A model generated the notes under the pieces. That model did no database searches. It was not told the origin of the DNA and worked only from the letters and a program-made list of their open reading frames with translations. From Pyrobaculum oguniense TE7 (GTDB taxonomy: Archaea > Thermoproteota > Thermoprotei > Thermoproteales > Thermoproteaceae), in NCBI GenBank assembly GCA_000247545.1, contig CP003316.1, positions 1,521,233 to 1,585,232 on the forward strand: DNA of 64,000 nucleotides. The letters run 5' to 3'. The number at the start of each line of letters is the position of its first letter. The first letter of the stretch is position 1. The position numbers were made by a program, and so were the translations under genes. Below are positions 27,637 to 48,417 of the stretch, piece by piece.

Positions 27637-28101
27637 ATGGAACAAGAGAGGAAATTGGGGATAGTAGTTCAGTCGGGCGCGGCGAATAGGATATGTTGCG
27701 TCGTCGTGTACACCGCTGCGGCGCTCGCCTCTGGCTGGAAGGTGGTCCTCCACCTGGTGAACGAGGGCTTGGTGGCCTTCAGGAAGGACACGGCCAAGAG
27801 GGTGTGGTCCAGCCTCGATCCGAAGGACTTCAGCCTCTACCCTTCATACTACGCCCCTCATGTGGCAGTCTTCTTGAAAAACGTCCAGGAGATGATCGCG
27901 TCGGGCAAGTTCAAGGATTGGCCCGAAATGCTTGCGGAGCTCAAGAGGCTACATCCCGATAAACTCAAGATCTACGCGTGCCCGTTGGCCGCGGCCACAT
28001 ACGGCATCAAGAAGGAGGATCTGCTCGATATAGTGGACGACATAAGAGGCGCGGAGTCGTTCCTCGAGGAGGTATATCCCGGCGTGGTCATGGTCTTCTA
28101 A
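27637..28101 (+). CDS. DsrE/F-like protein
   Basis: This 154-residue soluble protein has the DsrE-like alpha/beta fold: LGIVVQSGAANRICCVVVYT as the first strand and loop, GWKVVLHLVNEGLVAF, and KLKIYACPLAAATYGIKKED with the conserved Cys region. The family includes sulfur-relay proteins and uncharacterised peroxiredoxin-like relatives. It is a separate gene at the left end of the aromatic island; its role there is unknown. Confidence 0.65.
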   Translation: MEQERKLGIVVQSGAANRICCVVVYTAAALASGWKVVLHLVNEGLVAFRKDTAKRVWSSLDPKDFSLYPSYYAPHVAVFLKNVQEMIASGKFKDWPEMLAELKRLHPDKLKIYACPLAAATYGIKKEDLLDIVDDIRGAESFLEEVYPGVVMVF

Positions 28102-28214
28102 ACTCGGCAATCCGCCCTTTTAGTTCGCCTTCATCAATCGATGAGTTTAGATGGGAATAAGGGTCTCGTTGTGTATACAGCTCGCAAAATATATTATGCT
28201 GGTGTATCATTGTC

Positions 28215-28616
28215 ATGGACTTCGAGGTCGTCGTGGAGGCCGTCAGAAGGGGTGTAGAGAGGGCAACTGTCATGGGGATTAAGGTGGCCATAGCCGTCGT
28301 GGATGGAGGCGGACTTCCCGTCCTTGTATATAGAATGGCTGGCTCGTACCAGTTTACCCACGACGTGGCGCTCAGAAAGGCCATCACCGCAGCCTATTTC
28401 AAAAGGGCGACAGGGGAGCTCGCCGAGAGGGCCGCGCAGAACCTCCCGCTGTATCTCGGCTTGACCATACACGAGGGGCTTATCTTCGGGAAGGGAGGAC
28501 TGCCCGTCTTCAAAGACGGAGCCCTAGTCGCGGCCGTGGGCGTCAGCGGGGGGACCGGCGATCAAGACGAGGAAGTTGCTAAGGTCGTGGCAGAGGCCTT
28601 GCAGCGATCCCTCTAG
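28215..28616 (+). CDS. GlcG/HbpS-family protein (DUF336)
   Basis: This 133-residue protein shows the family layout: IKVAIAVVDGGGLPVLVYRM, AITAAYFKRATGELAE, LPVFKDGALVAAVGVSGGTG, QDEEVAKVVAEAL. Members bind heme or small molecules and often sit beside genes for aromatic or glycolate metabolism, but the reaction is unclear. It ends convergently with the IMPase-like gene, overlapping by four bases. A TATA-like AAATATATTA sits about 24 bp before the ATG. Confidence 0.8.
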   Translation: MDFEVVVEAVRRGVERATVMGIKVAIAVVDGGGLPVLVYRMAGSYQFTHDVALRKAITAAYFKRATGELAERAAQNLPLYLGLTIHEGLIFGKGGLPVFKDGALVAAVGVSGGTGDQDEEVAKVVAEALQRSL

Positions 28617-29368
28617 GCAAGCCCCGCCCGAGCCGCGGCGATATCGGCGAGGCTGGATTCGCCGGCTACGACGGAGACCCTCAGGCCCTTGGTTCTCACA
28701 TATGCCTTGAACTTCTTGTTATGCCTCCCGAACACCAGCGCCGGGGCTACGTCCCATACGCCCAGCCTATATCTGAGGTCCAAAAACAACGCGACCCTCC
28801 CGAGGGCCGCTAGGAGGGCCGAGTATGTGGCACAGCCCAAGCTCCTCGCCTTCAGTCCCAGCACCCTGGGGATCTCCAACTGGATCTGGGGATAGTCCCT
28901 CCCCAGCTCCACCAAGGCGACGGAGGAGCCGTCGGTTATCGGTAACGGAGACCCGTTGAGGAAGACGCCCTCCGCAGACGCCGTGAACACTTCGTCGGTT
29001 TTGGGCAACGCGATCACGGCTACCTCTAAATCGGCGAGATCGCCGGACTTATACCTACCTCCGGCCAGCGCCACCGCGAATAGGGGGATTCCGGCGAAGA
29101 AGTTCTCACTGCCGTCTAGGGGGTCGAGATAGATTACGTGGCGCTCGTCTCCCCACCTCACCTCCCCCGATTCCTCGGCTATAACAAGCGCTCCCTCCGG
29201 GAACTCCTCCCTCAACGCCCGCAGAGCTGCCTCCTCAGCCTCCGCGTCCGCCGCCTTGGTCACGTCCACGTCGCCCCTCCTCACCACAACGTCGCCTCCC
29301 CCCTCTTCGTACCTCCTCAACACGACGGCCTTGGTCCTCTCGGCAACTCTCAACAGTTTTGCCAACAT
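28613..29368 (-). CDS. Inositol-monophosphatase-family phosphatase
   Basis: This 251-residue protein of the Li-sensitive, Mg-dependent phosphatase fold has GDVDVTKAADAEAE, IAEESGE, LDPLDGSENFFAGIPLFAVA (metal-binding DxxDG) and LGVWDVAPALVF (second metal Asp). Archaeal relatives act on inositol phosphate or fructose 1,6-bisphosphate. Here it overlaps by 19 bases the 3' end of a phenylphosphate-synthase-like gene in the same orientation. A role in removing phosphate from an aromatic phosphate is therefore possible but unproven. Confidence 0.8.
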   Translation of the reverse strand: MLAKLLRVAERTKAVVLRRYEEGGGDVVVRRGDVDVTKAADAEAEEAALRALREEFPEGALVIAEESGEVRWGDERHVIYLDPLDGSENFFAGIPLFAVALAGGRYKSGDLADLEVAVIALPKTDEVFTASAEGVFLNGSPLPITDGSSVALVELGRDYPQIQLEIPRVLGLKARSLGCATYSALLAALGRVALFLDLRYRLGVWDVAPALVFGRHNKKFKAYVRTKGLRVSVVAGESSLADIAAARAGLA

Positions 29369-31098
29369 AGGACCTCCACCACCCCCCTCCCCCCGTCAAC
29401 CCTCACCTTTGCGCCGTCCCTCAACACCTTAGTGGCGTTGCCCGTGCCCACTACTGCGGGTACGCCGTATTCCCTGGCCAAAATCGCCGCGTGGGACATC
29501 ACGCCGCCTGAATCGGTCACCACTGCGGCCGCCTGAGACAACAGAGGGGCCCAAGTTGGCGCGATTGTGGGGGCCACGATGACCACGCCGCTCCTCACCT
29601 TGGCGAAATCGTCGTACCCCCTCACCACTACAACAAACCCCTCAGCGACTCCCGGCGAGGCGCCCACGCCGACTAGTCCCCTTCCGCCGTCTCCCCCTCC
29701 TATTCGATGCAACATGGCCAAGTTGGAGTCCCGTACCGCCGACGGCAACGCCCCTAGATACGGCGCCGTGGTCTCCCGCGAAAGCGCCTTGAGAAACTCC
29801 TCCCTCCTCCTGGCGACTCTCCCCCACCAGTGCTTGCCCACGGGGCTCCTCCCCGATGCCCACACAGTGGCCGCCTCCAGAAGTGCTTGCATCACCTCAA
29901 ACCAGTTCAAGTACCATATATCATCCTCCGACGCCAGGACCCCCCATTTGGCCAGAAGCCTGCCCACTTGATGTATCTTCTTGTAGCCCACCGAGAAGCC
30001 CCAGTTCTCCACGTAGAAGCTGTGCTCCTCTATATAGGGGTAGACCCTCCTAGCTACGTCGAGGTACTTCCAGAAGAGGTCTCTCAGATCCTCGGGGAGG
30101 AGCTGGGCGTAGCCGAGGGCGACGGCGTCGGGATCTGGTCTCGGCCGCTCGGGAGGCGGGCTACGTATGTAGTTCTTCAAAATCGCGAGGGGTATCTCGG
30201 GCCTCTCGTCCCATCTGGCGTCCGTGTGGAGCATGCCGCTGCCGGTCGACACATGGAAGTGTGCGAAAGACTCTCGCCACGCCGCCAGCCACTTGGCGCC
30301 GGCCTCGCCGGCGCCTGCTAAGGCTTTTTCTAGATCCTCCGGCGTCTCCGCCGACAGCACTAAGTCGCCTACGCCCAGCTCCCTCGCCAGCTTTGCGAGC
30401 TCCCTCAACGTCTTTTCGGGCAGCTCAACGTCTAGGGGGCGGCGTCCAGACATCATCAACGTGATGTGGTGGTCGGGGATATCGGGAAACACTGCCTTGC
30501 AGAAGCGGTAGAAGAAGTCATAGACGGCGTAGCCCAACATGAGCATCTCGTAATGCCTAAACCACAACCTCATCCACAGGGCGAGGAGCCTCATCCAGTT
30601 CTCCAAGAGGCGCTGGGGCGAGGGGTAGGCGCGGCTGTAGACGGCCTCGTCGGGCTCGTAGCCTTCTGGCAGCTCAAACTCAAGCGATTCCAGCTCCTTT
30701 ATTATCTCTAGGACCTCCCTCTTCCACTGCTCGTAGATAGAATCCCAGTTCTCGAGGTAGAAGCGTAGTCTCCTCTCAAACACCTCGGGGTCGCCCACCT
30801 TTCCCTCTTGGAAGGAGGTGCGGTAGGGCCTCCCCTTGACCATAATCGTGGCGCGCCCCCGGGAGGTGGGCATGGCGAAGACTCTGTTGTAGTAAGCCGA
30901 CTGCGTCATGTCCATCAGCATGACCGTGAGGGAGTAGTCCATCGGGTATAGGGGGCCGTCGCCGAAATGCACAGCGTCGTGGTACCAGAACCTTCCGTCC
31001 TCCTCGGCGACGAGATCGGCCGGCGGGTCAGCGAAAAGCTCCCTGATAGGCGTTTGGAAATACAAGTAGGGCCGCGCCTCAGAGGCGCACATGCACAT
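29350..31098 (-). CDS. PpsA-like phosphotransferase, second paralogue
   Basis: This 582-residue protein has an N-terminal region of about 460 residues that aligns in pattern with the PpsA-like protein at 35364-37220: FWYHDAVHFGD against FWYHDALHHYD, PDIPDHHITLMMSG against PDIPDQHIALMVAG, HSFYVENWGF against HNFYVEHWGH. The C-terminal swivelling domain carries the phosphohistidine GGVMSHAAILAREYGVPAVV, His at about 536. It has no ATP-binding domain and no neighbouring partner gene, so it may use PpsB at 34360-35367. The diverged substrate region suggests a different phenolic substrate. It overlaps the Rieske gene upstream by 20 bases. Confidence 0.75.
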   Translation of the reverse strand: MCMCASEARPYLYFQTPIRELFADPPADLVAEEDGRFWYHDAVHFGDGPLYPMDYSLTVMLMDMTQSAYYNRVFAMPTSRGRATIMVKGRPYRTSFQEGKVGDPEVFERRLRFYLENWDSIYEQWKREVLEIIKELESLEFELPEGYEPDEAVYSRAYPSPQRLLENWMRLLALWMRLWFRHYEMLMLGYAVYDFFYRFCKAVFPDIPDHHITLMMSGRRPLDVELPEKTLRELAKLARELGVGDLVLSAETPEDLEKALAGAGEAGAKWLAAWRESFAHFHVSTGSGMLHTDARWDERPEIPLAILKNYIRSPPPERPRPDPDAVALGYAQLLPEDLRDLFWKYLDVARRVYPYIEEHSFYVENWGFSVGYKKIHQVGRLLAKWGVLASEDDIWYLNWFEVMQALLEAATVWASGRSPVGKHWWGRVARRREEFLKALSRETTAPYLGALPSAVRDSNLAMLHRIGGGDGGRGLVGVGASPGVAEGFVVVVRGYDDFAKVRSGVVIVAPTIAPTWAPLLSQAAAVVTDSGGVMSHAAILAREYGVPAVVGTGNATKVLRDGAKVRVDGGRGVVEVLCWQNC

Positions 31099-31393
31099 CG
31101 CCGTCTACCACCTCAACGGGATACCGCCTTATGGGCGGCGCGGGCTTGCCCTCGACTGTGCCCTCGCCCGAGACGAGATCCCAGACGCCCCCGTGCATAG
31201 CGCAGAGGAGCATAGGCCTTCCCTCTCTGTTCAGGAATATCCTGCCGATAAAGCCGAGAGGCCACTTGGCGTGGGGACAAAGCGACTCGAACGCGTAGAC
31301 CGAGCCGCCGAGCCTCGCCACGGCGCAGTGTCTGTTCCCCGCCACCACCACCTTGGGCTTCTCGCTGAACTCCTCCAGCCTCCCCGCCCTCAT
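31079..31393 (-). CDS. Rieske-type [2Fe-2S] ferredoxin
   Basis: This 104-residue soluble protein has both cluster halves: SLCPHAKWPLG (Cys-x-His) and LLCAMHGGVWDLVSGEGT (Cys-x2-His). This is the small ferredoxin type that feeds electrons to oxygenases, not the anchored bc-complex type. It has no disulfide Cys pair, as expected for the oxygenase class. The upstream di-iron gene overlaps it by ATGA, so the two are almost certainly partners. Confidence 0.88.
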   Translation of the reverse strand: MRAGRLEEFSEKPKVVVAGNRHCAVARLGGSVYAFESLCPHAKWPLGFIGRIFLNREGRPMLLCAMHGGVWDLVSGEGTVEGKPAPPIRRYPVEVVDGDVHVRL

Positions 31394-32193
31394 CGCGAGG
31401 ACTCCGCCGCCTCTATCCTCTTGATCTTGGCAATAGTGGAGAGCTCCAGGGCCCCTACGGCGCAGTCCAGTATCTCAGCCCTCATCTCAGGAGTCGTAGC
31501 GTATTTGGCCCACACCCTCTCTGCGATGGTCCAGTGAAACGACTCATCGTCTTCGATTTCCCTGGAGAATTCCACCAGCATCCGGGTGGCGTCTCTATAC
31601 GGCTCTTTCCAGATCTCGGGGTTGAGGTGGGCGTTGTCTACAATCCCCTTGTGCTGAACGGTGGCGGTTAGCTCTACCGTCTGGAAGGCGCCCGTAAATT
31701 TGGCCTGGAAGTAGGGCTTTTCCAGCCGTTTCGTAGCGCATCTAAGCGGCCACTCGAAGAGGTCGGCCCATTCCTTTATGGGCTGGAAGTCCTCCATAGA
31801 GCCCCCGTACATCTTTAACACCTTTGTCCTAATGTAGAAATGCCTAGCCTCGTCAGAGACTTGGTGGGCGAAGACGTTTAAAAACTCGTCGTCTATGTAG
31901 TCTCTATATTCTGTAATGAGCTTGGCGAGCGCTGAGTTGGCCGCCCACTCGTTCCACGCCCCTTGTCTTGTCCAGAGAATTATGCCCTTAACGGTGGCGT
32001 TCCTAATCCAGAGGGCGCCCGTCTTGTAGTTGATTTCCAGTATGGGGTCGATGGTCGCCTTAAACCAGTCTATGAACTGGTACGAGTCGCGGAACTGGGC
32101 CAAGAAATCCAAGCTGGAGGCAGCCCTCTTGAGCTCATCGAAGACATACCGCTTTGACTCAAACTCTTCTCTGAGGATTTTTGCTATAGACAT
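31390..32193 (-). CDS. Di-iron oxygenase-like protein A
   Basis: This 267-residue all-helical protein has a full carboxylate-bridged di-iron ligand set: Glu82 (WNEWAAN), Glu115 and His118 (SDEARHFY), Glu174 (QTVELTA), Glu217 and His220 (EDDESFHW). The spacing E-33-ExxH-56-E-43-ExxH is that of bacterial multicomponent monooxygenases and related ferritin-like enzymes, but the protein is only half their size. It is coupled to a Rieske ferredoxin gene. Prediction: O2-activating subunit acting on an aromatic compound. Two paralogues lie at 44556 and 45394. A TATA box on this strand at 32214-32222 suits the ATG at 32193. Confidence 0.75.
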   Translation of the reverse strand: MSIAKILREEFESKRYVFDELKRAASSLDFLAQFRDSYQFIDWFKATIDPILEINYKTGALWIRNATVKGIILWTRQGAWNEWAANSALAKLITEYRDYIDDEFLNVFAHQVSDEARHFYIRTKVLKMYGGSMEDFQPIKEWADLFEWPLRCATKRLEKPYFQAKFTGAFQTVELTATVQHKGIVDNAHLNPEIWKEPYRDATRMLVEFSREIEDDESFHWTIAERVWAKYATTPEMRAEILDCAVGALELSTIAKIKRIEAAESSR

Positions 32194-32217
32194 AAAAAAT
32201 AATCTTAATATCTATTT

Positions 32218-32853
32218 TTAAGAATATTTTGAAATTACTTTAATTAATTCACAGAGGCTGTTATATATTTCGGCTATCTTGAAATCATGGCTGGTTCGGC
32301 CGTTAGTTATGCCGACGAACTTTACCCCGGCCGCCGTAGCCGAGGCCTCGTCCCACTCGCTATCCCCTATCATTACAGCATTCCTCGCGTTGATCCCAAG
32401 CCTCCTCAAGGCCACTAGCACGGGGTCGGGAAACGGCTTAGGCCTTATCCCCTCCTCTCTAGCAACCACCGCATCCGCCCTTATGCCAAATTTTTCCAAC
32501 ACGACGGCGGTGGCGCGGGGGCCCAACAACGTGACGATTGCCTTCTTATATCCCTCAGTCGCCCTCAAGAACTCGGCTAAACAAGGCATCGGCGCCGAGC
32601 GGACAGCGCCCTGCACCTCGTAGCGCTCTACCACCTCGTTGGCCATACGCCACGAGGGGGTTCCCGCAAGGGCGACGAGGGCGTCCATCGCCGCCTTCGT
32701 GCATTTGCCCCAGTAGGTTTTAGGCGTCTCGGCGCCTCGGGCAAGGCCCAGTCGTGACAGCTCCGCGTAGGCAGAGCAGTAGTCAACGTAGCTCTCTATA
32801 TCGACCAGGGTCCTGTCTAGGTCGAGCAGAAGCGCCGCCACGCCTACCACCAC
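32218..32853 (-). CDS. HAD-superfamily phosphatase (PGP-like)
   Basis: This 211-residue protein has all HAD motifs: ALLLDLDRTLVD (nucleophile and general acid Asp), IVTLLGP, the KPFPDPVLVAL lysine and VMIGDSEWDEASA. The helical cap lies between motifs I and II, as in phosphoglycolate phosphatases. It overlaps the end of the aldehyde dehydrogenase gene by ten bases, so it belongs to the aromatic operon. It could remove phosphate from an aromatic or other small phosphate. Confidence 0.8.
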   Translation of the reverse strand: MVVGVAALLLDLDRTLVDIESYVDYCSAYAELSRLGLARGAETPKTYWGKCTKAAMDALVALAGTPSWRMANEVVERYEVQGAVRSAPMPCLAEFLRATEGYKKAIVTLLGPRATAVVLEKFGIRADAVVAREEGIRPKPFPDPVLVALRRLGINARNAVMIGDSEWDEASATAAGVKFVGITNGRTSHDFKIAEIYNSLCELIKVISKYS

Positions 32854-34319
32854 CTTTGCATTACCACCTTGCGGTCAGTGAAGAAGTCCACGGCGTCTAC
32901 TTGGGCGTGCAACACGCCGAAGAAGGACTTCTTGCGGCCGCCGAACGGGAAGTGGGGGGTGGGCTGGGCTATGGCCATGTTTATGCCTATGTTGCCGGCG
33001 TTGACGCGCCTGGCGAATTCCCTGGCGTATTTGCCGCTTGATGTGAATATAGATGCGGCGTTGCCGTATTTAGTCGCGTTGGCGAACTGCACGGCCTCTT
33101 CGAAGTTCCTGGCGTATATTATGGGGAGCACGGGGCCGAAGACCTCCTCCTGCGCGATCTCCATGTCCATGTGAACCTCGTCGAGGACCGTGGGCCCCAT
33201 GTAGAAGCCCTCCGGATAAGCCTCCACCCGGTAGCCCCTTCCATCCACCAGTGGCTTCGCGCCCGCCTCCACGGCCCTCGTCACCATCCCCTCCACCCTC
33301 TGCTTGGAGGCCGAGGAAATGAGCGGGCCCATATCTGTATTGGGGTCAAGCTGGTAGCCCACCCTAATCTTCTTGACCCTCTCGACTATGTGTCTCTTGA
33401 ACTTCTCATAGGCCTCGCCCACTAGGATGAGGTTGCCGGGTGCCAGACAACGCTGGCCCGCCATCACGAAGAACCCCGTGGCTATATTCTCCACGGAGTT
33501 GGTCAAGTCGGCGTCTGGCATAACCACCACGGGGTTCTTAGCCCCGGCCCCCACGAGCGCCCTCTTCCCATGGGCGGCGGCCAAGGCGTACACCTTTTCC
33601 CCCACCTTGGTGGACCCCACGAAAGCAACACCTACGACCTCCGGGTGCTTGATCAAGGCCTCAGCCGTCGACCCGTCGCCGTGTATCACGTTGAAAACGC
33701 CCGGCGGGTAGCCCGCCTTCTGGAAGAGCTCGCCGAGAGCCGCCGCGGGTATGGGGTCTTGCTCGCTGGGCTTGAGGACGACTGTGTTGCCTAGAGTGAT
33801 GGCCAAGGGGATGAACCACTGGGGTATCATCACAGGGAAGTTAAACGGCGTAATGATGGCGAAGACGCCCAGCGGCTCCCTCACGGTCTCCATGTCTATT
33901 TCGGGCTCCGTGTTTGCGATATTCATCACCTTCTTCACGTCGGCCAGGAAATGGGGGGACGCGAGAGCCATGTCGATAGCCTCTAGGCCCCTCCTAAGCT
34001 CCCCCACGGCCTCCGCAACGGTCTTGCCCACGTTTTTGGCCACCACCTTGGCCAGCTCCTCCATATTCTGCTCGTACACAATCTTCAGCCTCACCAAGTA
34101 CTGTAGTCTCTCGTAGATGGGGAGCCTCGACCACTTCTCGAACGCCGAGGCGGCGGCCCTCACGGCGGCATCCACCTCCGACGTAGACGCCACCGGCACC
34201 TCCCCAATCCTACTACCGAGGCCGGGGTCGTATGTGGGGAGTCTTTTATCTCCCCCCACCTCGTATCTCCCGTCGATGAACATCGGCACTACGCCGTAAG
34301 AATCCCTCAGACTTATCAT
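32844..34319 (-). CDS. Aldehyde dehydrogenase, methylmalonate-semialdehyde type
   Basis: This 491-residue NAD-dependent enzyme has TPFNFPVMIPQWFIP, the cofactor loop FVGSTKVG, and catalytic Cys in VMAGQRCLAPGN. Instead of the general-base motif of ordinary aldehyde dehydrogenases it has GAGAKNPVVVMPDAD, like the GAKNH region of the CoA-acylating methylmalonate-semialdehyde dehydrogenases. The C terminus (HFPFGGRKKSFFGVLHAQ) also fits that group. It may turn a semialdehyde from ring cleavage into an acyl-CoA. It sits between pps genes and the HAD gene. Confidence 0.85.
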   Translation of the reverse strand: MISLRDSYGVVPMFIDGRYEVGGDKRLPTYDPGLGSRIGEVPVASTSEVDAAVRAAASAFEKWSRLPIYERLQYLVRLKIVYEQNMEELAKVVAKNVGKTVAEAVGELRRGLEAIDMALASPHFLADVKKVMNIANTEPEIDMETVREPLGVFAIITPFNFPVMIPQWFIPLAITLGNTVVLKPSEQDPIPAAALGELFQKAGYPPGVFNVIHGDGSTAEALIKHPEVVGVAFVGSTKVGEKVYALAAAHGKRALVGAGAKNPVVVMPDADLTNSVENIATGFFVMAGQRCLAPGNLILVGEAYEKFKRHIVERVKKIRVGYQLDPNTDMGPLISSASKQRVEGMVTRAVEAGAKPLVDGRGYRVEAYPEGFYMGPTVLDEVHMDMEIAQEEVFGPVLPIIYARNFEEAVQFANATKYGNAASIFTSSGKYAREFARRVNAGNIGINMAIAQPTPHFPFGGRKKSFFGVLHAQVDAVDFFTDRKVVMQRWW

Positions 34320-34359: not shown

Positions 34360-35367
34360 TTATTTACTCTTTATCGACATTAAAGTTCTCACTATATCTT
34401 TAATTATATCTCCCGAGCTCTCCCATTTGTGGACCGCCTTCTTGGACCACACGGTCTCCGGCCTGCTCTGCAGGACGTAGACGTCATCGCCGTAGGCCCA
34501 CTCGACGTCGACGGGATGTCCGTAATATCTCTCAAGCCTCATCACCACGTCGGCTATCCTCAACGCTTGCTCGTCCGTGAGGGAGGGCCTCGAGGTCTCA
34601 TCCGGGGGCAACTCCTCCTCGACCACGGCGCCATCCCTCAGCGCATATTTCTTGGTCTTCTGATCCGAGATAACCCTCTTGATGATCTCGCCCGTGACCT
34701 TGCTCACATAGAATCTGTCGGGCGTCACCTCGCCGGACACCACAGCCTCGCCTAGGCCCCAGCTGGACTCTATAGCGACCACGGACTTATCACCGGTGGT
34801 TGGGTTGAGGGAGAAGGCAACGCCGGCTGACACCGGGTCGATCAGCTTCTGGATCACGACTGCCATGAGCACCTTCGAGGGCGGGATCTTGTTGTCAAGC
34901 TTATATGAAACGGCTCTCTCCACAAAATTACTGGCCCACACCCGTTTTACATACGCCCGCACGTCGCTACCCCTAACGCCGAGGTAGGTGTCGTGGATAC
35001 CCGCGAAGCTGAAATCGGGGGAGTCCTCGTAGGTGGCTGACGATCTGACCGCCAGATAGTCGTCGAGGAACTCCTCCTCCACCCTCCGTAGGTGCTCGTC
35101 CAGCTCAGGCGGTATGTCGCCCGCCAGGATCCTCTCCCTTATCTCCGCAACTATGGAAAACGGGTTCCCCTCACCTCTGTCTAATCTGGCCACGAGCTTG
35201 TCCAGATTATTGTACTCGAGATAAGCTCTGTAAGCCTGTGACGTTACCACATATCCAGGTGGCACTCTGGCGCCTGCCGCGATGAGCTCGCCAAGCGAGG
35301 CGCCCTTGCCTCCCGCCAGAGCCACGTCGGTTCTCCTCAGCTCTGGGATAGGGATTAAGTATTTCAT
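34360..35367 (-). CDS. ppsB: Phenylphosphate synthase ATP-binding subunit (PpsB-like)
   Basis: This 335-residue protein starts at ATG 35367, which overlaps the stop of the PpsA-like gene (ATGA). It matches the N-terminal ATP-grasp domain of PEP synthases: LAGGKGASLGEL, AVRSSATYEDSPDFSFAGIH, VAFSLNPTTGDKSVVAIESS, WGLGEAVVSGEVTPDRF, PVDVEWAYGDDVYVLQSRPE. The size is that of PpsB of Thauera (about 40 kDa), which with PpsA uses ATP to make phenylphosphate, AMP and phosphate from phenol. It lacks the His domain, which is supplied by the upstream gene. PEP synthase is excluded by this split. Confidence 0.82.
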   Translation of the reverse strand: MKYLIPIPELRRTDVALAGGKGASLGELIAAGARVPPGYVVTSQAYRAYLEYNNLDKLVARLDRGEGNPFSIVAEIRERILAGDIPPELDEHLRRVEEEFLDDYLAVRSSATYEDSPDFSFAGIHDTYLGVRGSDVRAYVKRVWASNFVERAVSYKLDNKIPPSKVLMAVVIQKLIDPVSAGVAFSLNPTTGDKSVVAIESSWGLGEAVVSGEVTPDRFYVSKVTGEIIKRVISDQKTKKYALRDGAVVEEELPPDETSRPSLTDEQALRIADVVMRLERYYGHPVDVEWAYGDDVYVLQSRPETVWSKKAVHKWESSGDIIKDIVRTLMSIKSK

Positions 35368-37250: not shown

Positions 37251-37389
37251 ATTTCCAAAAATTCTTACAAGTGATTATCTAAATATTTATGATTTTGTAA
37301 ATTTAAATTTATTTGTGGCAAATTAAAAACCCTAGGCGAGAAATAAAATTCCCAAAAAGAATATCTTGACGCAAACCCAAGCACGTTCC

Positions 37390-38981: not shown

Positions 38982-39000
38982 TTCCAAATATTTACATATA

Positions 39001-41161: not shown

Positions 41162-41797
41162 CTAACATCGCGGCACCACTGCCCTCTCCAATAGTATCGG
41201 AATTATCTGAAGGGCGTCTCCCACTACGCCGAGGTCGGCCACTTTGAATATGTCCGCATGTCTATTTACATTAACCGCCACGATATAGCGCGCGTTTCTA
41301 ATGCCCACCAAGTGGTTTATGTGGCCTGAAACGCCGAAAGCTATATAAAGCTTCGGCGCGATGGCCCTGCCAGATACGCCGACTTGCACCTTATAGGGTA
41401 ACCACCCCGCGAGCACCACATTGCGGGTAGCGGCGACGGCGGCGCCGAGCTTTTTAGCAAGCGCGATGGCCAACTCTACGTTTTCTCTGCGCTTTAGCCC
41501 CCTCTCCACGCCAATCACCACTTCGGCCCCCTCAAGATCGGGGTGGCCTATATCAACTGGGCGTCTGGCCAAGATAGAGATCCGTCCGCCAGCGTGCATC
41601 ACGACCCGCGTCACCTCGCCCCTGCGGCCAGGGTTGGGGACGAGAGGCTTGAACATGCCGGGTCTCGCCGTGGCCATCTGTGGCTTTGTCTTCGTTGTTA
41701 TAAGCGAGACCACGTTGCCGCCGAAGGCCGGCTTATGCATAACAAGCTTGCCTTCTTTTACATCAAAATTCATACAGTCGGCGGTAAGCCCTATCAC
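41162..41797 (-). pseudogene. etfA: 3' fragment of electron-transfer flavoprotein alpha gene
   Basis: The 211 codons match only the C-terminal FAD domain of EtfA: IGLTADCMNF, ERGLKRRENVELAIALAKKL, GAAVAATRNVVLAGWLPYKV, QVGVSGRAIAPKLYIAFGVS, GHINHLVGIRNARYIVAVN, FKVADLGVVGD. The N-terminal domain of about 110 residues that contacts the beta subunit is missing, and no etfB gene is near. Upstream in this frame the sequence turns at once into the other fragment (41763-42185). It is best read as a deletion remnant; expression of a lone FAD domain is possible. Confidence 0.7.
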
Positions 41798-42185
41798 TGG
41801 CCAAGTTCCTCCACTCGCCGGCCTTCCCGAATTTGGCCATGCGGGCCTCTCCCGGGACGGCCTTGTATTCAGGTATGGGTTTTGCCGTTATGTGGATGCA
41901 GAACGCGCCTCCGTGGTAGGCGGGATCTAGTTTTCTGTCCAGTTCGGCCCTCAGCGCTGCATCGCGCACGGCGAATTGATCCATTTGCCGCTGGTTAGTC
42001 ACATACTCCCTATGGGTGACCTTATAGGAGGTGTCGTATTGCTCAGCCCAGACGTCTATGGGCAGATAGGGCAAACTGTGCATATCTACGGGAAATAGCT
42101 CCTTCTCTCTGACGTATTTCGGCGTCAACTCAAGCCTGTTTGCTGGGTCGTAGTACTCGTCTCTCGTAGGAAGTCTTGGCTCCAT
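41763..42185 (-). pseudogene. 5' fragment of toluene-monooxygenase-type hydroxylase alpha gene
   Basis: The first about 125 residues follow the N terminus of TmoA-type di-iron hydroxylase alpha subunits: TPKYVREKELFPVDM, YDTSYKVTHREYVTNQRQMD, PEYKAVPGEARMAKFGKAGE, RNLAS. Glu of PEYKAV corresponds to the first iron ligand. The gene ends where the DExRH helix should follow, so five of six ligands and about 370 residues are missing. After RNLAS the frame runs out within a few codons and overlaps the etfA fragment out of frame. It cannot be an active oxygenase. Confidence 0.7.
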
Positions 42186-42336
42186 TTTTGTTGTTTGCAC
42201 GACCACAATTTTTGTAATTTTTTCAGAAATATTTCTCAATATTTATTATAGAAAAATTTAAAATATATCAAAATAAGAAGACATAAAATGTACTTCTAGG
42301 GAAAATTTTTTGAGAGAAGGAAATAAAATTCAAACG

Positions 42337-42642
42337 CTAAATCTCCACGTATACGGCCCCGTCCTTTATCACCGCCTCATACGTCCTTATGTAGTACTTA
42401 TATCCTTTCAATTCCCCCTCGCCTGTTTCTAGGTTGTAGACAGTGCCGTGGCCCTTGCACGTCAAATGCCCGTCCCTGTACGTGCCGAGGCTGAGCAACC
42501 ATCTACCGTGGGGGCATATGCCGTCGGCCACGTAGATCTTATCTCCGTCTTTAACCACCAAGAGCGCCTTCGTGCCTACCGCGACGGGCACCGGCGCCTT
42601 CTCCGGCAACTTAGCCACCTCGATGACCTTTACCATTACCAT
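42337..42642 (-). CDS. Rieske-type [2Fe-2S] ferredoxin
   Basis: This 101-residue protein starts MVMVKVIEVAKLPEKAPVPV. Cluster ligands are in DGICPHGRWLL (Cys-x-His) and LTCKGHGTVYNLETGEGE (Cys-x2-His). It is the soluble oxygenase-ferredoxin type. The start overlaps the helical-Rieske fusion gene by seven bases, so both are made together. It probably transfers electrons to that protein or to the di-iron proteins. Confidence 0.88.
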   Translation of the reverse strand: MVMVKVIEVAKLPEKAPVPVAVGTKALLVVKDGDKIYVADGICPHGRWLLSLGTYRDGHLTCKGHGTVYNLETGEGELKGYKYYIRTYEAVIKDGAVYVEI

Positions 42643-43607
42643 GGCACCCTCACGTAGATTACTCCATCGGCGATCTTTACTTGGTACCTCGGGAGGGTTC
42701 TCGCCTCGCCGTGGTTGGGGTGTAGTATAACCCTGCCGCTCCTGGCGTCGAAGGTGGCGTGATGGGCGAGGCAGGTGAGCTGCTTGCCCATTAGGTAGCC
42801 GTAGTGGAGCGGGTCCCGCTCGTGGGTGCACCAGTTCTCAAACGCCGCGACGACGCCGTCGACGTATGTCAGCAAGACCTCCCTCCAGAGGCCCACGACG
42901 GCCATCTTCTTGCCCACGCGCTGTAGCTCATCTACTGTGGCGACCCTCTCCCATTGGGTGTCTGGTAGCTGCGGACCCCCATCATCTACAACCTCGGGGG
43001 GTTGGAAGAAGTCGAAGTAGATTGGCGTGATGGCGTTAAACAGCTCTAGGTCGACCCCCTCTCTGTCCGGCTTGTTAACGCCAACGGCCTGTAGGGCGTC
43101 GTCTATGACCTTTATCTCGTCCTCTTCCCTCATGTATGCCAGATAGGCCAGCTGGGCTACGTGTCGGTTGTTAGCGTTGTAGGCAGCCGCCCTATATCCC
43201 GTGTGGGTGAACTTCACGGCGATCCTTGCCGCCATGAGGCCCCTCTTGATATCCTTCTTCGCCACGCCTACGACGTAGTCCATCAGCTCCTTGATCTTGG
43301 GAGGTATCCGCAGCCCGTTGAGGCCCAGCGCTCTAGATGCCACGAACCACCTCCTATACACGCTGCTCTCGTGCCAGTCCACGATCCAGCCCATCTTGTG
43401 GTATATATCGGGCTCCGCCATGAGCTCCGGCCTCTCTACGGCGGCCCTCACTAGTTGTATTGTAAACAGCTCTTCCAGCAACTTCTGTTGCACGAACCTC
43501 CTGTAACCGTAGAGACCGGGATCGCGCCTAAACCACTCCACCCAGCTTTCGTGAAGTGTAAATTCGAACTCGTCTATCTTATCCCTAGTTGCGATTGGTG
43601 TTTGCAT
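42636..43607 (-). CDS. Helical domain fused to a Rieske domain
   Basis: This is a 323-residue protein. Residues 1 to about 205 are mostly helical with conserved-looking segments (KMGWIVDWHESSVYRRWFVA, HTGYRAAAYNANNRHVAQLA, YMREEDEIKVIDDAL) that I cannot assign; no ExxH di-iron motif is seen. Residues 225-323 are a Rieske domain with Cys260/His262 (NWCTHERDP) and Cys279/His282 (LTCLAHHATFD). A fusion of this type would deliver electrons within one chain. It may be a reductase or coupling component for the di-iron oxygenases. Operon with the Rieske ferredoxin downstream. Confidence 0.7.
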   Translation of the reverse strand: MQTPIATRDKIDEFEFTLHESWVEWFRRDPGLYGYRRFVQQKLLEELFTIQLVRAAVERPELMAEPDIYHKMGWIVDWHESSVYRRWFVASRALGLNGLRIPPKIKELMDYVVGVAKKDIKRGLMAARIAVKFTHTGYRAAAYNANNRHVAQLAYLAYMREEDEIKVIDDALQAVGVNKPDREGVDLELFNAITPIYFDFFQPPEVVDDGGPQLPDTQWERVATVDELQRVGKKMAVVGLWREVLLTYVDGVVAAFENWCTHERDPLHYGYLMGKQLTCLAHHATFDARSGRVILHPNHGEARTLPRYQVKIADGVIYVRVPW

Positions 43608-43629: not shown

Positions 43630-44157
43630 TTAATAGTTATCAAAATCTATTTTATTTAATTTTGCGCAATATAAGGCGAGAGCCGCCGTGGCTCTCAGAT
43701 CCTCTATCTCCATCTTATGGGCTTTTTCGCACGCCTCTGACAGAGGGATTTTGACCACTTCGATCACCTCATATGGCTCCGGGGAGATCCTACCTGGAAT
43801 CGTGTCGCGCGCGAGAAATATATGTGCCACCTCTGTGCTGTATCCGGGGCTCACGATGCCCTTAAATAGAAGCTCTAATGAAGTCGGCTTGAAACCCGTC
43901 TCCTCCTCCAGCTCCCTCGCGGCGGCATCCTCAGGCGTCTCGCCGTCTGCCACCACGCCGGACGGGAGCTCAAGGGTGTAGCGGCCTAGAGCAGGGCGGT
44001 ACTGCCTCACGAAGAGCACATCCCCGTCGTGAAGTGCCAGCACCGTCACCACAGGCGGGAAGACCACCCTCTCAGCGGTGGTTTCTAGGCCGTTAGGAAG
44101 GCGCACCGGCCCTCCCTCCACCGTAATCCTCTTCCCCCTGTACTTGACCTCCATCAT
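43630..44157 (-). CDS. Nudix hydrolase, ADP-ribose pyrophosphatase-like
   Basis: This 175-residue protein has the Nudix box GETPEDAAARELEEETGF in SGVVADGETPEDA..., preceded by FVRQYRPALGRYTLELPSG, typical for ADP-ribose or nucleotide-sugar pyrophosphatases. ATG 44157 overlaps the stop of the upstream Rieske gene by four bases (ATGATGG). A direct role in aromatic metabolism is not obvious; it may clean up a nucleotide by-product. Confidence 0.85.
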   Translation of the reverse strand: MMEVKYRGKRITVEGGPVRLPNGLETTAERVVFPPVVTVLALHDGDVLFVRQYRPALGRYTLELPSGVVADGETPEDAAARELEEETGFKPTSLELLFKGIVSPGYSTEVAHIFLARDTIPGRISPEPYEVIEVVKIPLSEACEKAHKMEIEDLRATAALALYCAKLNKIDFDNY

Positions 44158-44507
44158 AGAACAGTGGGGGACGCCACCACTGGGAGATCTACATATATGT
44201 ACCCGTCTACCTCAACAGCAGCGTAAACCCTAAGCTTATTGCTAGGCTTTCCCTGTACTGCGCCCTCGCCTGTAGACAGCGACCAGAGGCCGCCGTGTCC
44301 TTTGCATAATACTTTCACATCGCCGTCAGCTCCCACAAAGCACATGCCAGAGGCGCCTAGATTCCACTTGCTGTGTGGGCAAAAGGCTTCAAAGACAACT
44401 ACTCTCCCGTTAACCCTCGCGAGGGCTACCGGCGTGATGCCGACTATCTTAACAACAGGCTTGCCGCCCTCGGGCACCTCCGCGGATCTGGCGACTTTTA
44501 CAAACAC
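44154..44507 (-). CDS. Rieske-type [2Fe-2S] ferredoxin
   Basis: This 117-residue protein has cluster halves FEAFCPHSKWNLG and VLCKGHGGLWSLSTGEGAVQ, very like the Rieske at 31079-31393. It has no membrane segment. It lies just downstream of two di-iron proteins in the same orientation and is their likely electron donor, mirroring the pairing at 31.1-32.2 kb. Confidence 0.88.
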   Translation of the reverse strand: MFVKVARSAEVPEGGKPVVKIVGITPVALARVNGRVVVFEAFCPHSKWNLGASGMCFVGADGDVKVLCKGHGGLWSLSTGEGAVQGKPSNKLRVYAAVEVDGYIYVDLPVVASPTVL

Positions 44508-44555
44508 ATATACGAACCCCTTGGTAGATTTTAAATTCCCGAAAAATTATTTTAT

Positions 44556-45338
44556 TTATATTGCCCTCTTCTCGGAAAGCTCTACCCTTCTCACCCTAGC
44601 CTCGGTGGAGACTCTAAGCGCCTCTGCGGCGCATTCCAGGATGTTCCGAATAGCCTCAGGCGATCTGGCATACTTCTCCCACATCCTCTCCGCGATGGAC
44701 CAGTGGAAGAGCTCATCGTCCTCTATCTCGCGGAAAGACTCTCTCAACATCTCGGCGGCCTTTGCGTAGGGCCCGGAGTACAGTTGCCTATTCCTCTCCA
44801 AGTTGTCGTGCACCCCTCTGTGGTGGTACACGCTGGTGAGCTCCACGACTTGGAGGGTAGAGGTGAGCCTCACCTGGAGGTACTTCGGGTTCTTCGGCGC
44901 GCAGACGAAGGGGAGCTCAAACAACTCCACCCACTCCTTTATCGGCTTAAATCCCTCCATGGAGCCGCCGAAGGCCTTCAGTATTCTGCTTCTGAGGTAT
45001 AGGTGGCGCCCCTCGTCCGCGATCTGCTGGGCAAACATGGTCATGAACTCCGTATCTATGTAATCTCTATATTCATTGATAGATCTTGCCACGTCTGATG
45101 CGGCTGCCCACTCGTTCCACACGCCTTGCCTCAGCCACGCGATCACGCCGGGGACGTCGGTTGTGGTCGCCCAGGCTGAGCCTATTTCGTAGTGGAATTG
45201 TAGCACGGGATCGGCGGCCGCCTTGAACCAATCCACGAACTCCACGGGGGATTTAAACGCCGTGGCGTCTACCTCCTTTATCTTAGCCCACACATCCTTG
45301 ACTTGTTCTACTTTTTCCCAAAGTTTTTCGTAGACCAT
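44556..45338 (-). CDS. Di-iron oxygenase-like protein B
   Basis: This 260-residue paralogue of the proteins at 31390 and 45394 has the ligand set intact: Glu76 (WNEWAA), Glu109/His112 (ADEGRHLY), Glu166 (QVVELTSVYHHRGVHDN), Glu209/His212 (EDDELFHW). It ends RVELSEKRAI, nearly the same as paralogue C, so B and C are recent relatives. It begins about 55 bp after paralogue C. Prediction: O2-activating catalytic subunit. The paralogues may form a mixed complex as in other multi-subunit di-iron enzymes. Confidence 0.75.
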   Translation of the reverse strand: MVYEKLWEKVEQVKDVWAKIKEVDATAFKSPVEFVDWFKAAADPVLQFHYEIGSAWATTTDVPGVIAWLRQGVWNEWAAASDVARSINEYRDYIDTEFMTMFAQQIADEGRHLYLRSRILKAFGGSMEGFKPIKEWVELFELPFVCAPKNPKYLQVRLTSTLQVVELTSVYHHRGVHDNLERNRQLYSGPYAKAAEMLRESFREIEDDELFHWSIAERMWEKYARSPEAIRNILECAAEALRVSTEARVRRVELSEKRAI

Positions 45339-45393
45339 GGACTATTGCCGTTTTTCGTATTAAAAAAAGCGTAAAATTTAATTTAATTGATTG

Positions 45394-46197
45394 CTAAATG
45401 GCCTTCTTCTCGGATAGCTCCACGCGCCTGATCCTAGCCTCCATCGCGGCCCGCAACGCGCCTCCTGCGCAGTCCAGTATCTCCGCCCTCGCCTCGGGCG
45501 TGTTGGCGTACTTCATCCACACCCTTTCGGCAATGGACCAGTGGAAGAGCTCGTCGTCCTCTATCTCCCTGAAGGTCTCCATGAACAACTGGGACGCCTC
45601 CCTATACGGCTGAACCCACAGCCTCGGGTTGTTGGGGAAGTTGTCATGCACCCCTCTGTGGTGGTACACGCTGGTGAGCTCCACGACTTGTAGCGTCGAG
45701 GTCAGCTTGACTTGGAAGTACGGCCACTCTAGCCTCTTGGAGGCGCATCTCAGCGGGAAGTCGAACAGCTCAACCCACTCCTTTATGGGCTGGAAGCCCT
45801 CCATAGAGCCCCCGTACATCTTCAACACCTTGGACCTTATGTAGTAGTGTCTGCACTCGTCGGAGATCTGTTGCGCCAACACGTTCATGAACTCGGTGTC
45901 TATCAAGTCGCGGTATTCGGTAATGGATCTGGTGATCACCGTGTTCGCGGCCCACTCGTTCCACACGCCTTGCCTCAGCCACGCGACCACGCCGGGGACA
46001 TCGGCGTTGAGGATCCACTGGGCCCCTATCTGGTACTGGACGTTGAGTAGCGGATCCACAAAGGCCTTGAACCAATCTATGAACTCAACTGGCGTTTTGA
46101 ACTGGGCTAGGAACTGCCTATCGTTTTTCAGCTTCTCCATTTCGTCCAGGATATACCTCCGCTCTTGATACATCTGCTTTAATTTTTCAGCAGACAT
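45394..46197 (-). CDS. Di-iron oxygenase-like protein C
   Basis: A 267-residue protein with di-iron ligands Glu81 (WNEWAAN), Glu114/His117 (SDECRHYY), Glu173 (VVELTSVYHHRGVHDN) and Glu216/His219 (EDDELFHW). It shares most of its length with paralogues A and B. The first-shell ExxH motif has Cys beside the Glu (DECRH). It is the first gene of the unit C-B-Rieske-Nudix. The sequence upstream (46198-46251) is AT-rich and holds its promoter. Confidence 0.75.
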   Translation of the reverse strand: MSAEKLKQMYQERRYILDEMEKLKNDRQFLAQFKTPVEFIDWFKAFVDPLLNVQYQIGAQWILNADVPGVVAWLRQGVWNEWAANTVITRSITEYRDLIDTEFMNVLAQQISDECRHYYIRSKVLKMYGGSMEGFQPIKEWVELFDFPLRCASKRLEWPYFQVKLTSTLQVVELTSVYHHRGVHDNFPNNPRLWVQPYREASQLFMETFREIEDDELFHWSIAERVWMKYANTPEARAEILDCAGGALRAAMEARIRRVELSEKKAI

Positions 46198-46251
46198 ATT
46201 CCCCCTTATGCGAATCCCTAATAAATAATTCGAAAAATTAAGTAAAATAAT

Positions 46252-47233
46252 TTAATGTATTTGTATAATTACCTTGCCGAGCCTCTCGGGGCTGTCAAGC
46301 GCCTTAAGGGCCTCGCCGGCTTGATCCAGCCTATACCTCTGCGATATCGGCGTCTTGATCCTGCCTCTCTCGGCGAGCTCCACGAGAACGGCGAGATCCC
46401 CCCTCCTCCCCCCCGGTGCTCCCCAACACCGACAGCTGTGCGCCGTAGAGCCTCCTGAGGTCGAGCCTCACCTCGCCCCCCGTGAGGGCGCCCGCCGTTA
46501 CGTACCTCCCGCCCCTGGCCAGCATGGAGAAGCTCAGCTCCCAAGTCCCGGCGCCGAGCGGGTCCACCACGACGTCGAAGCCGCCCGCCCTAGACGCCTC
46601 CTGAGGGGTCAGCACCTCGTCGGCGCCCAGCCTCTTGAGCTCTGTCGCGAACTTATCGGCCCTCCTGGTCACCGCCACGACGTAGGCCCCCATCAGCTTA
46701 GCCAGCTGGACGGCGAACACGCCGACGTTCCCCGTGGCCCCCACCACGGCCACTCTCTCGCCCGGCGACACCCCGGCCCTCCTCAGCATGTTATAGGCAG
46801 TGAGGCCGCCCACCGGCAGGCCCACCACGTCCTCGAAGGGGGCTGAGGTCCTCACCAAGTTCCTCGCTGGGACGGAGGCGAGCTCTGCCCAGCCGCCGTG
46901 TGTGGCGACGCCAATTATCCCCCCGGTCTCGCACAGCTGCGTCTCGCCCTTCAAGCAGTGCCGACAGACGCCGCAGAACAGCCTATTGTACACAACAACG
47001 CGGTCCCCCCTCTTGAAATCGCTGGCGCCGGGGTCGAGGACCTCCCCCACGAACTCGGCCCCGGGGACGTGCGGGATGGGCCTCGCCTGCACAGATCCAG
47101 TCACTGTGAATCTGTCTATGGGGTTTACGACGGCCAGCGTAACCCTTAGGAGAACCTCGCCGTGTTTATGCTCGGGGTTTGGGAAATCGCCTACTATAAG
47201 CTCGCCCGGCTTTTCAAAAAAGGCCGCCTTCAT
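46252..47233 (-). pseudogene. Zinc-type alcohol dehydrogenase/quinone-reductase family gene with poly-G frameshift
   Basis: The open part (47233 to about 46415) is a medium-chain dehydrogenase: GAEFVGEVLDPGASDFKRGD, CGVCRHCLKGETQLC (structural-zinc lobe), VVGATGNVGVFAVQLAKLMG (NAD(P) loop). The last 55 codons (LAVLVELAERGRIKTPIS, ending GKVIIQIH at TAA 46252) are in another frame. The switch lies at seven C on the + strand (46408-46414), where six would keep the frame. It is one extra base: a mutation, slippage site or sequencing error. FAH gene upstream overlaps by ATGA. Confidence 0.75.
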
Positions 47234-48138
47234 TCCTCCACCACGTAGTTCCTCAGCCTCCCCACCGACTCGACCTCAGCCTCCACCATGTCACCGCCTT
47301 TTAGGAACTTGCCCTTGGGGAAGCCCACGCCCGGCGGAGTGCCGGTGAATATCATGTCGCCGGGCTTGAGGGTTATGCCCTGGGACGCCCAGTGTATCAA
47401 CTGCTGGACGCTGAAGATTAGGTCTGAGGTGTTGCCCTCTTGCTCCAGCTGGCCGTTTACCCACAGCCTAAGCCCCAGCTTGTTCGGATCGGGGACCTCG
47501 TCCTTAGTAACAATCCAAGGCCCCACCGGCGCGGCTGTGTCCATGGACTTGCCCCATATCCAGTTTTGCCCGTATGGATTGAGTTGTTGCGGCCATCCCG
47601 GCGGGAACTGCCAATCCCTTATCGACACATCGTTGCCTACTGTATAGCCAAAGACGTAGTCAAGCGCCCTCTCGGGGTCGATGTACTTGCCAGCTCTCCC
47701 AATGACAACCACAAGCTCCACTTCCCAGTCTACCTTCTGCGCCACTTTGTGCTTTATTATGCGGCCCTCGTGGCCGACCAGCGCGTTGGGGAACTTGGGG
47801 AAGAGGTAGGGCCTTTCAGGCGGCCTAACCCCGGCTTCTTGGCCGTGAGCCCTGTAGTTAACCGCCACGGCGAATATCTTCTCCGGATCGGGGACCGGCG
47901 GCTCCCAAACAAACTCGCCGGGGGCGTAAAAGGGCCCCTTAGCCCTGGCCTCCAACTTTTTAACTACTTCAAGGGCAGGCTCACCCACGGCGATTAGTTT
48001 TTTCATGCTGTAGAGAAAATCCGGCGCCTCGTATGTGCCAAACACTTGCTTATACGCCTCGGGGAGATCTAGAACTCTCCCCTCTTTCCAAAGCCCTACT
48101 TTTGTCACTTCCCCTTTTCTAAACGTAACTAACTTCAT
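47230..48138 (-). CDS. Fumarylacetoacetate-hydrolase-family enzyme
   Basis: This 302-residue protein has the FAH fold: KIFAVAVNYRAHGQEAGVRP, metal-binding VDWEVELVVVIGRAGKYI, VGNDVSIRDWQ, WGKSMDTAAPVGPWIVTKDE, and DMIFTGTPPGVGFPKGKFLK. Members hydrolyse, isomerise or decarboxylate 2-oxo-dienoic acids made in meta ring cleavage. With the LigAB-type dioxygenase it would form the lower pathway. It overlaps the dehydrogenase gene by four bases. Confidence 0.87.
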   Translation of the reverse strand: MKLVTFRKGEVTKVGLWKEGRVLDLPEAYKQVFGTYEAPDFLYSMKKLIAVGEPALEVVKKLEARAKGPFYAPGEFVWEPPVPDPEKIFAVAVNYRAHGQEAGVRPPERPYLFPKFPNALVGHEGRIIKHKVAQKVDWEVELVVVIGRAGKYIDPERALDYVFGYTVGNDVSIRDWQFPPGWPQQLNPYGQNWIWGKSMDTAAPVGPWIVTKDEVPDPNKLGLRLWVNGQLEQEGNTSDLIFSVQQLIHWASQGITLKPGDMIFTGTPPGVGFPKGKFLKGGDMVEAEVESVGRLRNYVVEE

Positions 48139-48198
48139 AGCATCTGCATTATGAATGCCTTAAAAATTATCGATATAATTAAATGTCTAAAAAACAAA

Positions 48199-48417
48199 TT
48201 AAATTATTAAAAGGCGGTACGATATGCCACGCGCTGGGCAGTTCTCCACGGCTTTTTGAATCTTGGGAAGATCTTCTAAAGGCCTTAAAATCTTGTGCTC
48301 CCCATTAGGTAGCTTCACAACACGATTTACTTTAAAAAGCTCTGGAAAAGCCTCTTCACAGTACGGACAGCCCCTGCACCTCTGTGGGATAATTACTACC
48401 TCAACCACCCTCTTCAT
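48199..48417 (-). CDS. Single-cluster [4Fe-4S] ferredoxin
   Basis: This 72-residue protein has CRGCPYCEEAFPELF giving Cys-x2-Cys-x2-Cys near residue 14, and the fourth ligand in ENCPARGISY. The region between is enlarged and basic, as in single-cluster ferredoxins. It is the first gene in the reverse direction at the right end of the aromatic island and may feed electrons to its Rieske proteins. Confidence 0.82.
   Translation of the reverse strand: MKRVVEVVIIPQRCRGCPYCEEAFPELFKVNRVVKLPNGEHKILRPLEDLPKIQKAVENCPARGISYRLLII

Follow-up and report, generated by a model that had tools for sequence, protein, structure and literature searches.

A gene island of Pyrobaculum oguniense that may degrade a phenolic compound aerobically after phosphorylating it

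We were interested in why a kinase resembling phenylphosphate synthase should be encoded among putative oxygenases in an aerobic archaeon. The genes in question form an island at ∼28.6–48.1 kb of a 64-kb window (the whole stretch of DNA analyzed) from Pyrobaculum oguniense TE7. This hyperthermophile is a facultative aerobe that can grow with O2 and uses yeast extract and tryptone. The genome totals 2,452,920 bases in two contigs (published as a chromosome of 2,436,033 bases and an extrachromosomal element of 16,887). A sequence-only reading of the island had proposed that a phenol is phosphorylated, oxygenated, dephosphorylated, and cleaved. Every gene class it named was recovered by profile searches, motifs, and coordinates: two PpsA-like proteins, one PpsB-like protein, three di-iron-like proteins (dF1–dF3), four Rieske proteins, and LigAB, together with an IMPase, three HADs, an aldehyde dehydrogenase (ALDH), a Zn-dependent alcohol dehydrogenase (ADH), an FAH-family enzyme, a NUDIX hydrolase, and a probable regulator. 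On balance, we favor the view that the island serves to break down a phenolic compound with O2 once this has been phosphorylated.

The kinase would be assembled from three genes:

34360..35370, minus strand: PpsB, ATP-grasp component of the dikinase (PF01326, PPDK_N, E = 7e-91)
35364..37220, minus strand: PpsA1, substrate-binding and swivel component (motif S-DIGGLMA-H; PF00391; NF006153)
29350..31098, minus strand: PpsA2, second substrate-binding and swivel component (PF00391; motif T-DSGGVMS-H intact)

The ATP-grasp domain (PF01326, in PpsB) and the swivel domain (PF00391, in PpsA1 and PpsA2) are thus encoded as separate proteins. PpsB is 39%–42% identical to the PpsB proteins of the pps, cre, hpe, and haloarchaeal clusters described below. 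Both PpsA1 and PpsA2 keep the phospho-accepting histidine of the swivel motif T/SxxGGxxxH, which is essential in the bacterial protein HpeH (PMC12167813). Homology to phosphoenolpyruvate (PEP) synthase could instead make PpsAB a split PEP synthase, or another phosphotransferase, handling pyruvate from meta-cleavage. We consider this highly improbable: PF00391 is the only Pfam match in either PpsA, so the PEP-utilizers C-terminal domain (the PEP/pyruvate barrel) is absent from both, and they are therefore not PEP synthase halves. PpsA1 scored 972.5 bits against NCBIfam NF006153 (cut-off 578) and did not reach the cut-offs of the PEP synthase models; PpsA2 scored under the NF006153 cut-off. In a PpsA tree, PpsA1 grouped with proteins of the cre, hpe, and pps clusters, the Thermoproteota island proteins forming one side of a branch (100/99). 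Judged from these sequences, PpsA1 or PpsA2 with PpsB is predicted to phosphorylate a phenolic hydroxyl.

The putative oxygenase components are spread over the island:

31390..32193, minus strand: dF1, di-iron protein, first gene of an accessory operon (all six ligands present)
44556..45338, minus strand: dF2, di-iron protein (six ligands in the homolog alignment)
45394..46197, minus strand: dF3, di-iron protein (six ligands; AlphaFold model)
31079..31393, minus strand: Rsk1, Rieske ferredoxin (PF00355, E = 2.5e-9)
42337..42636, minus strand: Rsk2, Rieske ferredoxin (sequence and CxH/CxxH motif; conserved)
44154..44507, minus strand: Rsk3, Rieske ferredoxin (PF00355)
42636..43607, minus strand: BetaRsk, helical domain of ∼210 aa fused to a Rieske domain (PF00355 at 218–305; kept as far as Caldarchaeum)

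Two of the dF paralogs are 58%–62% identical to the third. The di-iron character proposed for the trio held up: the full ligand set E81, E114xxH117, E173, and E216xxH219 (dF3 numbering) was invariant in nine aligned proteins from four genomes, including a metagenome-assembled genome (MAG) of Candidatus Caldarchaeum. In the dF3 model (mean pLDDT 94.9), these ligands lie on helices 67–94, 101–127, 160–189, and 199–230, four consecutive long helices that would form the classical carboxylate di-iron arrangement. Di-iron binding is likely, and the company of Rieske proteins and a ring-cleavage enzyme suggests that dF acts as an oxygenase.

The family has no described relatives in the libraries searched. 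We obtained no Pfam match for dF1–dF3, no NCBIfam match for dF1 or dF3, no PHROGs match for dF3, no dF on plasmids, and nothing credible among PDB sequences with the dF alignment as query. Foldseek searches with the dF model returned as best matches weak heme-oxygenase-like proteins (TenA, UndA, and PqqC; best E = 4.7e-3), with the O2-activating iron enzymes UndA, CADD, and HrmI among them; the ferritin-like YciF was weaker still. The Caldarchaeum copy scored 19.3 bits against Rubrerythrin, below the cut-off. Bacterial multicomponent monooxygenases of the toluene/phenol hydroxylase type share the E/ExxH/E/ExxH pattern and a Rieske partner with dF, and a remnant of such a gene lies in the island; however, we rejected dF as a PF02332 member or TmoA relative, since it had no match to the family and a profile comparison with TmoA gave nothing. 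BetaRsk is the probable partner of the di-iron subunit. Comparisons of its N-terminal domain with dF and TmoE, as a possible paralog, also gave nothing, and its AlphaFold model (pLDDT 50) was too poor for use.

Kinase and oxygenase meet most closely in the accessory operon, which ends in one of several predicted phosphatases:

28613..29368, minus strand: IMPase-family phosphatase, last gene of the accessory operon (PF00459, E = 3e-20)
32218..32853, minus strand: HAD1, HAD phosphatase (PF13419; DxD intact)
37366..38166, plus strand: HAD2, NagD-like HAD (motif DVQGT, second Asp replaced by Gln)
38163..38981, plus strand: HAD3, NagD-like HAD (motif DVHGV)

The operon consists of dF1, Rsk1, PpsA2, and the IMPase, in that order and with overlaps of 4–20 bases. 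Its order is kept in G029, a 2.5-Mb genome of the same genus, where a 46% identical IMPase occupies the same place; the set was not found in the island stretch of G043, one of two MAGs (G043 and G044) from another genus of Thermoproteaceae. Because the genes overlap and their order is kept in G029, oxygenase, ferredoxin, kinase component, and phosphatase appear to travel as one set, the strongest internal hint of a phosphorylate–oxygenate–dephosphorylate unit.

Several phosphatases had been predicted, and all four are present, but a phosphatase role fits the HADs unequally. HAD1, which adjoins PpsB in G043 and Caldarchaeum, is most likely the better candidate, since DxD is kept in it and lost in HAD2 and HAD3. 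The latter two, with DxQ and DxH in place of DxD, share homology with a HAD encoded in an hpe-like cluster of Rhizobium (28%, E = 1.6e-20 for HAD3). The DVQGT motif of HAD2 also occurs in Caldarchaeum, and these unusual replacements of the second Asp in HAD2 and HAD3 lie beside kinase genes.

What would follow phosphorylation can be judged from PpsAB genes elsewhere. We compared 16 PpsAB contexts: 10 plasmid records (PpsA covering ≥80% of the query), the Thermoproteota genome G175, and the five genomes that encode dF. All 16 had exactly one type of next-step enzyme: Ppc/UbiD, biotin carboxylase, P450, Rieske dioxygenase, or the di-iron/Rieske set. Because the contexts are few and some of them are related, we regard this as a pattern and not a statistic. 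Azoarcus had PpsC, Ppc, UbiD, and UbiX; Thermomicrobium, Rhizobium leguminosarum, and Rhodococcus JS3073 had a biotin carboxylase; and R. oxybenzonivorans and R. ruber had a P450 and an HD-domain protein, with ALDH in the cluster and toluene monooxygenase genes adjoining. Four haloarchaeal plasmids (L045, L046, L052, and L059; two from Natribaculum that are near-identical here, one each from Natrinema and Haladaptatus) combined PpsA and PpsB with a classical Rieske ring-hydroxylating dioxygenase, a metallophosphoesterase, and ALDH, plus NUDIX and ADH genes in those annotated. This cassette resembles the island in being archaeal and in its gene classes, but differs in the kind of oxygenase and phosphatase. 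It offers a further, independent archaeal case in which aromatic oxidation may begin with phosphorylation, and no paper in the library searched dealt with haloarchaeal phenylphosphate or with a PpsAB–oxygenase combination in archaea. NUDIX genes also occur in the haloarchaeal and Azoarcus clusters. A polytopic membrane protein that matches no Pfam family accompanies PpsAB in three lineages (L016 11765–12661, L026 7027–8016, and L055 8738–9862), of aerobic and anaerobic types alike, and is a candidate phenol transporter; we did not find it in the P. oguniense window.

The same comparison bears on whether PpsAB here supplies phenylphosphate to an unlinked UbiD carboxylase, as in the anaerobic-type phenol pathway, leaving the oxygenases to another substrate. 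Two UbiD genes do exist in the P. oguniense genome. Both are far from the island, in which tblastn found no match to UbiD, UbiX, PpcA, PpcB, biotin carboxylase, or P450, as the sequence-only reading had stated for UbiD; PpsC and CoA ligase were likewise not found there. The phenylphosphate synthase/carboxylase systems of Thauera and Azoarcus share PpsA and PpsB homologs with the island, which has aerobic enzymes in place of their PpsC, PpcAB, UbiD, and UbiX. Moreover, UbiD copies occurred in 10 of the 10 Thermoproteaceae genomes tested, six of which lack a PpsA of the island kind, and are therefore core genes in this family. (In G029, the first UbiD gene matches as two overlapping pieces, frameshift-like, at G029:C1:124626–125199.) Among 398 Thermoproteota genomes, five encoded dF, all five with PpsA, and a PpsA at E ≤ 1e-60 was found in these five and in G175. 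G175 lacks dF and has, near PpsAB, genes for a CoA ligase and for a UbiD that shares 51% identity with PpcB. It serves as a natural control, in which the phenylphosphate-carboxylase homolog is linked where dF is missing. An unlinked carboxylase in P. oguniense thus seems barely credible.

The island is not confined to one strain, a point missed by the sequence-only reading. Its gene set recurs in G029, G043, and G044 with differing gene orders, making four Thermoproteaceae genomes in total, and a compact version lies on two contigs of the Caldarchaeum MAG: FAH-HAD2-LigB-LigA-dF-BetaRsk, HAD3, and the start of a PpsA on one, and PpsA-PpsB-HAD1 on the other. The Caldarchaeum locus (L026 926–2278) also encodes a fusion of a putative cyclase domain (PF04199) with an HTH domain and a ParB-type N-terminal domain. 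Peptide patterns of dF searched in 84,980 genomes hit only Thermoproteales MAGs and one Caldarchaeum MAG, although the patterns were strict and distant relatives may escape them. Between P. oguniense and G029, pN/pS was 0.18–0.19 for PpsA1, LigB, dF3, and FAH, indicating strong purifying selection, and 0.49–0.63 for the faster-evolving PpsA2, IMPase, Rsk1, and NUDIX, by a simple counting method with synonymous sites near saturation. Since the set is kept despite rearranged order and its core genes are under purifying selection, the linkage is not due to chance.

The fate of the oxygenated product is suggested by the ring-cleavage and lower-pathway genes:

39987..40262, minus strand: LigA subunit of a ring-cleavage dioxygenase (PF07746)
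40250..41080, minus strand: LigB, catalytic subunit (PF02900, E = 3e-44; 84% identical in G029)
32844..34319, minus strand: ALDH of the MMSDH/acylating type (TIGR01722, 479.6 bits versus a cut-off of 448.5)
46331..47233, minus strand: Zn-dependent ADH (PF08240/PF00107)
47230..48138, minus strand: FAH-family enzyme, HpaG-like (PF01557, E = 2e-70; HpaG C-terminal model sub-cut-off)

LigA and LigB, encoded by adjacent genes and both over the model cut-offs, make up a class III extradiol dioxygenase. The ALDH can be called acylating, as predicted, since MMSDH is the CoA-acylating type. Reasoning from the protein families, PpsB would load phosphate onto the histidine of the swivel domain in PpsA1 or PpsA2, from where it would pass to the phenolic hydroxyl. 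Next, the dF proteins, with BetaRsk and the Rieske ferredoxins, may introduce oxygen into the phospho-aromatic, probably at a ring position to give a catechol and possibly also in a side chain. HAD1 most likely, or another HAD, or the IMPase in the accessory set, would remove the phosphate; LigAB would open the ring of the vicinal diol so released; and the product would reach central metabolism by way of ALDH, FAH, and ADH. We speculate that the phosphate could act as both a charged handle and a protecting group, retaining a volatile phenol and slowing catechol autoxidation near 90°C.

Such an order of events is not unprecedented, because the bacterial Cre and Hpe pathways begin alike. The Hpe pathway of the aerobe Rhodococcus rhodochrous GD02 uses the kinase HpeHI, biotin-dependent carboxylation by HpeCBA, which accepts the phosphorylated substrate only, and then HpeD, a NagD-type phosphatase experimentally shown to act on aromatic phosphates. 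This proves the phosphorylate–transform–dephosphorylate logic in an aerobe. Like the island, Hpe has a two-component dikinase and a NagD-type HAD, there acting after the transforming step; its second step is carboxylation, whereas the island has no biotin carboxylase. The earlier remark that no such pathway was known from archaea needs narrowing: Cre (with a P450), Hpe (with a biotin carboxylase), and the haloarchaeal plasmids are precedents for parts of it, but the archaeal di-iron/Rieske version is apparently undescribed in the library searched. The proposed sequence of phosphorylation, oxygenation, and dephosphorylation fared similarly; the idea gained independent support from the one-next-step contexts, the accessory operon, and the NagD-type HADs, but we infer the order itself. 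As a hypothesis, phosphorylation-first catabolism by an oxygenase is well supported by those contexts and the packing of the operon.

HpeHI also raises the possibility of a side branch, in which phosphorylation traps, detoxifies, or stores phenol while the oxygenases use non-phosphorylated aromatics and the substrate is regained by the HADs. HpeHI has a sub-micromolar Km and has been interpreted as compatible with scavenging (PMC12167813), and the altered active sites of two HADs speak against a simple linear order. We nevertheless think such a branch quite unlikely, given that HpeCBA does not take the free substrate, that PpsAB clusters are always accompanied by exactly one next-step enzyme type, and that the accessory operon ties the kinase tightly to an oxygenase.

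The Cre pathway suggests a different substrate. In it, CreHI of Corynebacterium glutamicum begins 4-cresol catabolism by phosphorylation. On this model, an alkylphenol such as 4-cresol would be phosphorylated and its methyl group oxidized by dF/Rieske proteins, ADH and ALDH would give hydroxybenzoate, and, after dephosphorylation, a second dF paralog would form a protocatechuate-type diol for LigAB. The Cre cluster reportedly also holds the P450 CreJ and an HD-domain protein. Cre and its Rhodococcus relatives resemble the island in being aerobic, in placing a two-component dikinase before an O2-dependent enzyme, and in having ALDH, and the Rhodococcus clusters join PpsAB, P450, HD-domain protein, and ALDH to neighboring toluene monooxygenase genes. 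The island in turn has ADH, ALDH, two to three dF paralogs, and a toluene-monooxygenase remnant. On the other hand, Cre is bacterial, with a P450 oxygenase and an HD-domain protein where the island has HAD/IMPase (neither CreJ nor the Cre-type HD-domain protein was found in the island), and the Rhodococcus stretches read had no annotated LigAB or FAH, both of which the island has. Further, the best-fitting model for the ALDH is MMSDH, a type of lower pathways, the P. oguniense ADH has a frameshift, and neither ADH nor ALDH lies on the Caldarchaeum fragments (short contigs). We therefore regard the full Cre-like route as possible, if rather doubtful. Phenol, the substrate first proposed, is in any case not required, as the genes agree equally well with side-chain oxidation of an alkylphenol in the manner of Cre, involving ADH and ALDH.

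The toluene-monooxygenase remnant and the ADH frameshift, both overlooked earlier, suggest that the island is no longer entirely intact:

41162..41797, minus strand: C-terminal half of ETF-alpha, remnant (PF01012 only from position 114)
41763..42239, minus strand: N-terminal part of a toluene/phenol-monooxygenase alpha subunit, remnant (PF02332, Phenol_Hydrox, positions 2–106 of 230)

The truncated monooxygenase gene, the sole PF02332 match in the genome and across 45 genomes of the order, ends before the ExxH and abuts the half ETF-alpha gene (41162–42239). The junction at 41.1–42.3 kb looks like a deletion scar, and could be a misassembly; two other ETF-alpha genes, 34%–42% identical, exist in the genome. 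Because Rhodococcus P450-type clusters also adjoin toluene monooxygenase, cresols from toluene are a plausible ancestral input. Compared with its relatives, the ADH loses the reading frame ∼50 codons before the end (∼46270–46424), which could be an assembly error.

Several observations weigh against a phosphorylation-first aerobic pathway. The remnant and the frameshift suggest partial decay in this strain, and PpsA2 of G029 is frameshifted (L015 5827–7474, split just before the swivel domain with the catalytic His). The fold match of dF is weak, so that its putative oxygenase activity is deduced from its ligands and its gene neighborhood. In Thermoproteales, the second Asp that is normally present is missing from HAD2 and HAD3. 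The Caldarchaeum LigB is strongly different (33%), and a dedicated reductase was not found in the island. Growth of P. oguniense on aromatics is not on record, and its genome paper makes no mention of aromatic compounds. We counted in favor of the pathway that P. oguniense grows with O2 and that two COX1 genes lie directly upstream of the island.

Three further genes belong to the island or its edge:

28215..28616, plus strand: HbpS/GlcG-like protein (PF03928; kept beside the island in related genomes)
38944..39990, plus strand: AbrB/MazE-type DNA-binding protein, probable regulator (PF04014 sub-threshold; kept in G029, G043, and G044)
43630..44157, minus strand: NUDIX hydrolase (PF00293)

The C-terminal half of the probable regulator appears PhoU-like in sequence. 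The upstream stretch (14873–26581) contains the gene of a cytochrome c assembly protein and both COX1 genes, one of which is a COX1–COX3 fusion; downstream (49920–53064) are genes for an ABC ATPase, a beta-helix protein resembling NosD, and two NosL-like proteins. Scanning the window for tRNAs and Rfam families gave no match. We also considered the island as a compositionally foreign block and dropped the idea for want of a clear signal (GC of 51%–61% versus 50%–63% in the flanks).

We tentatively propose, with less than even confidence, that the dF family and its Rieske-fused subunit hydroxylate phosphorylated phenols in hyperthermophilic archaea, the phosphate serving as a removable protecting group, and that, with the P450 and Rieske-dioxygenase clusters, this amounts to a general strategy that arose with three or more unrelated kinds of oxygenase. 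Few genes are involved, and their enzymes should be thermostable. If the favored interpretation is true, the island would be the first archaeal aerobic aromatic pathway opened by phosphorylation, as far as the library searched shows, and dF would be a new family of di-iron oxygenases with aryl phosphates as substrates. Scattered bacterial oddities such as Cre and Hpe would then become instances of a general rule, in which an interchangeable kinase module feeds carboxylases or unrelated oxygenases.

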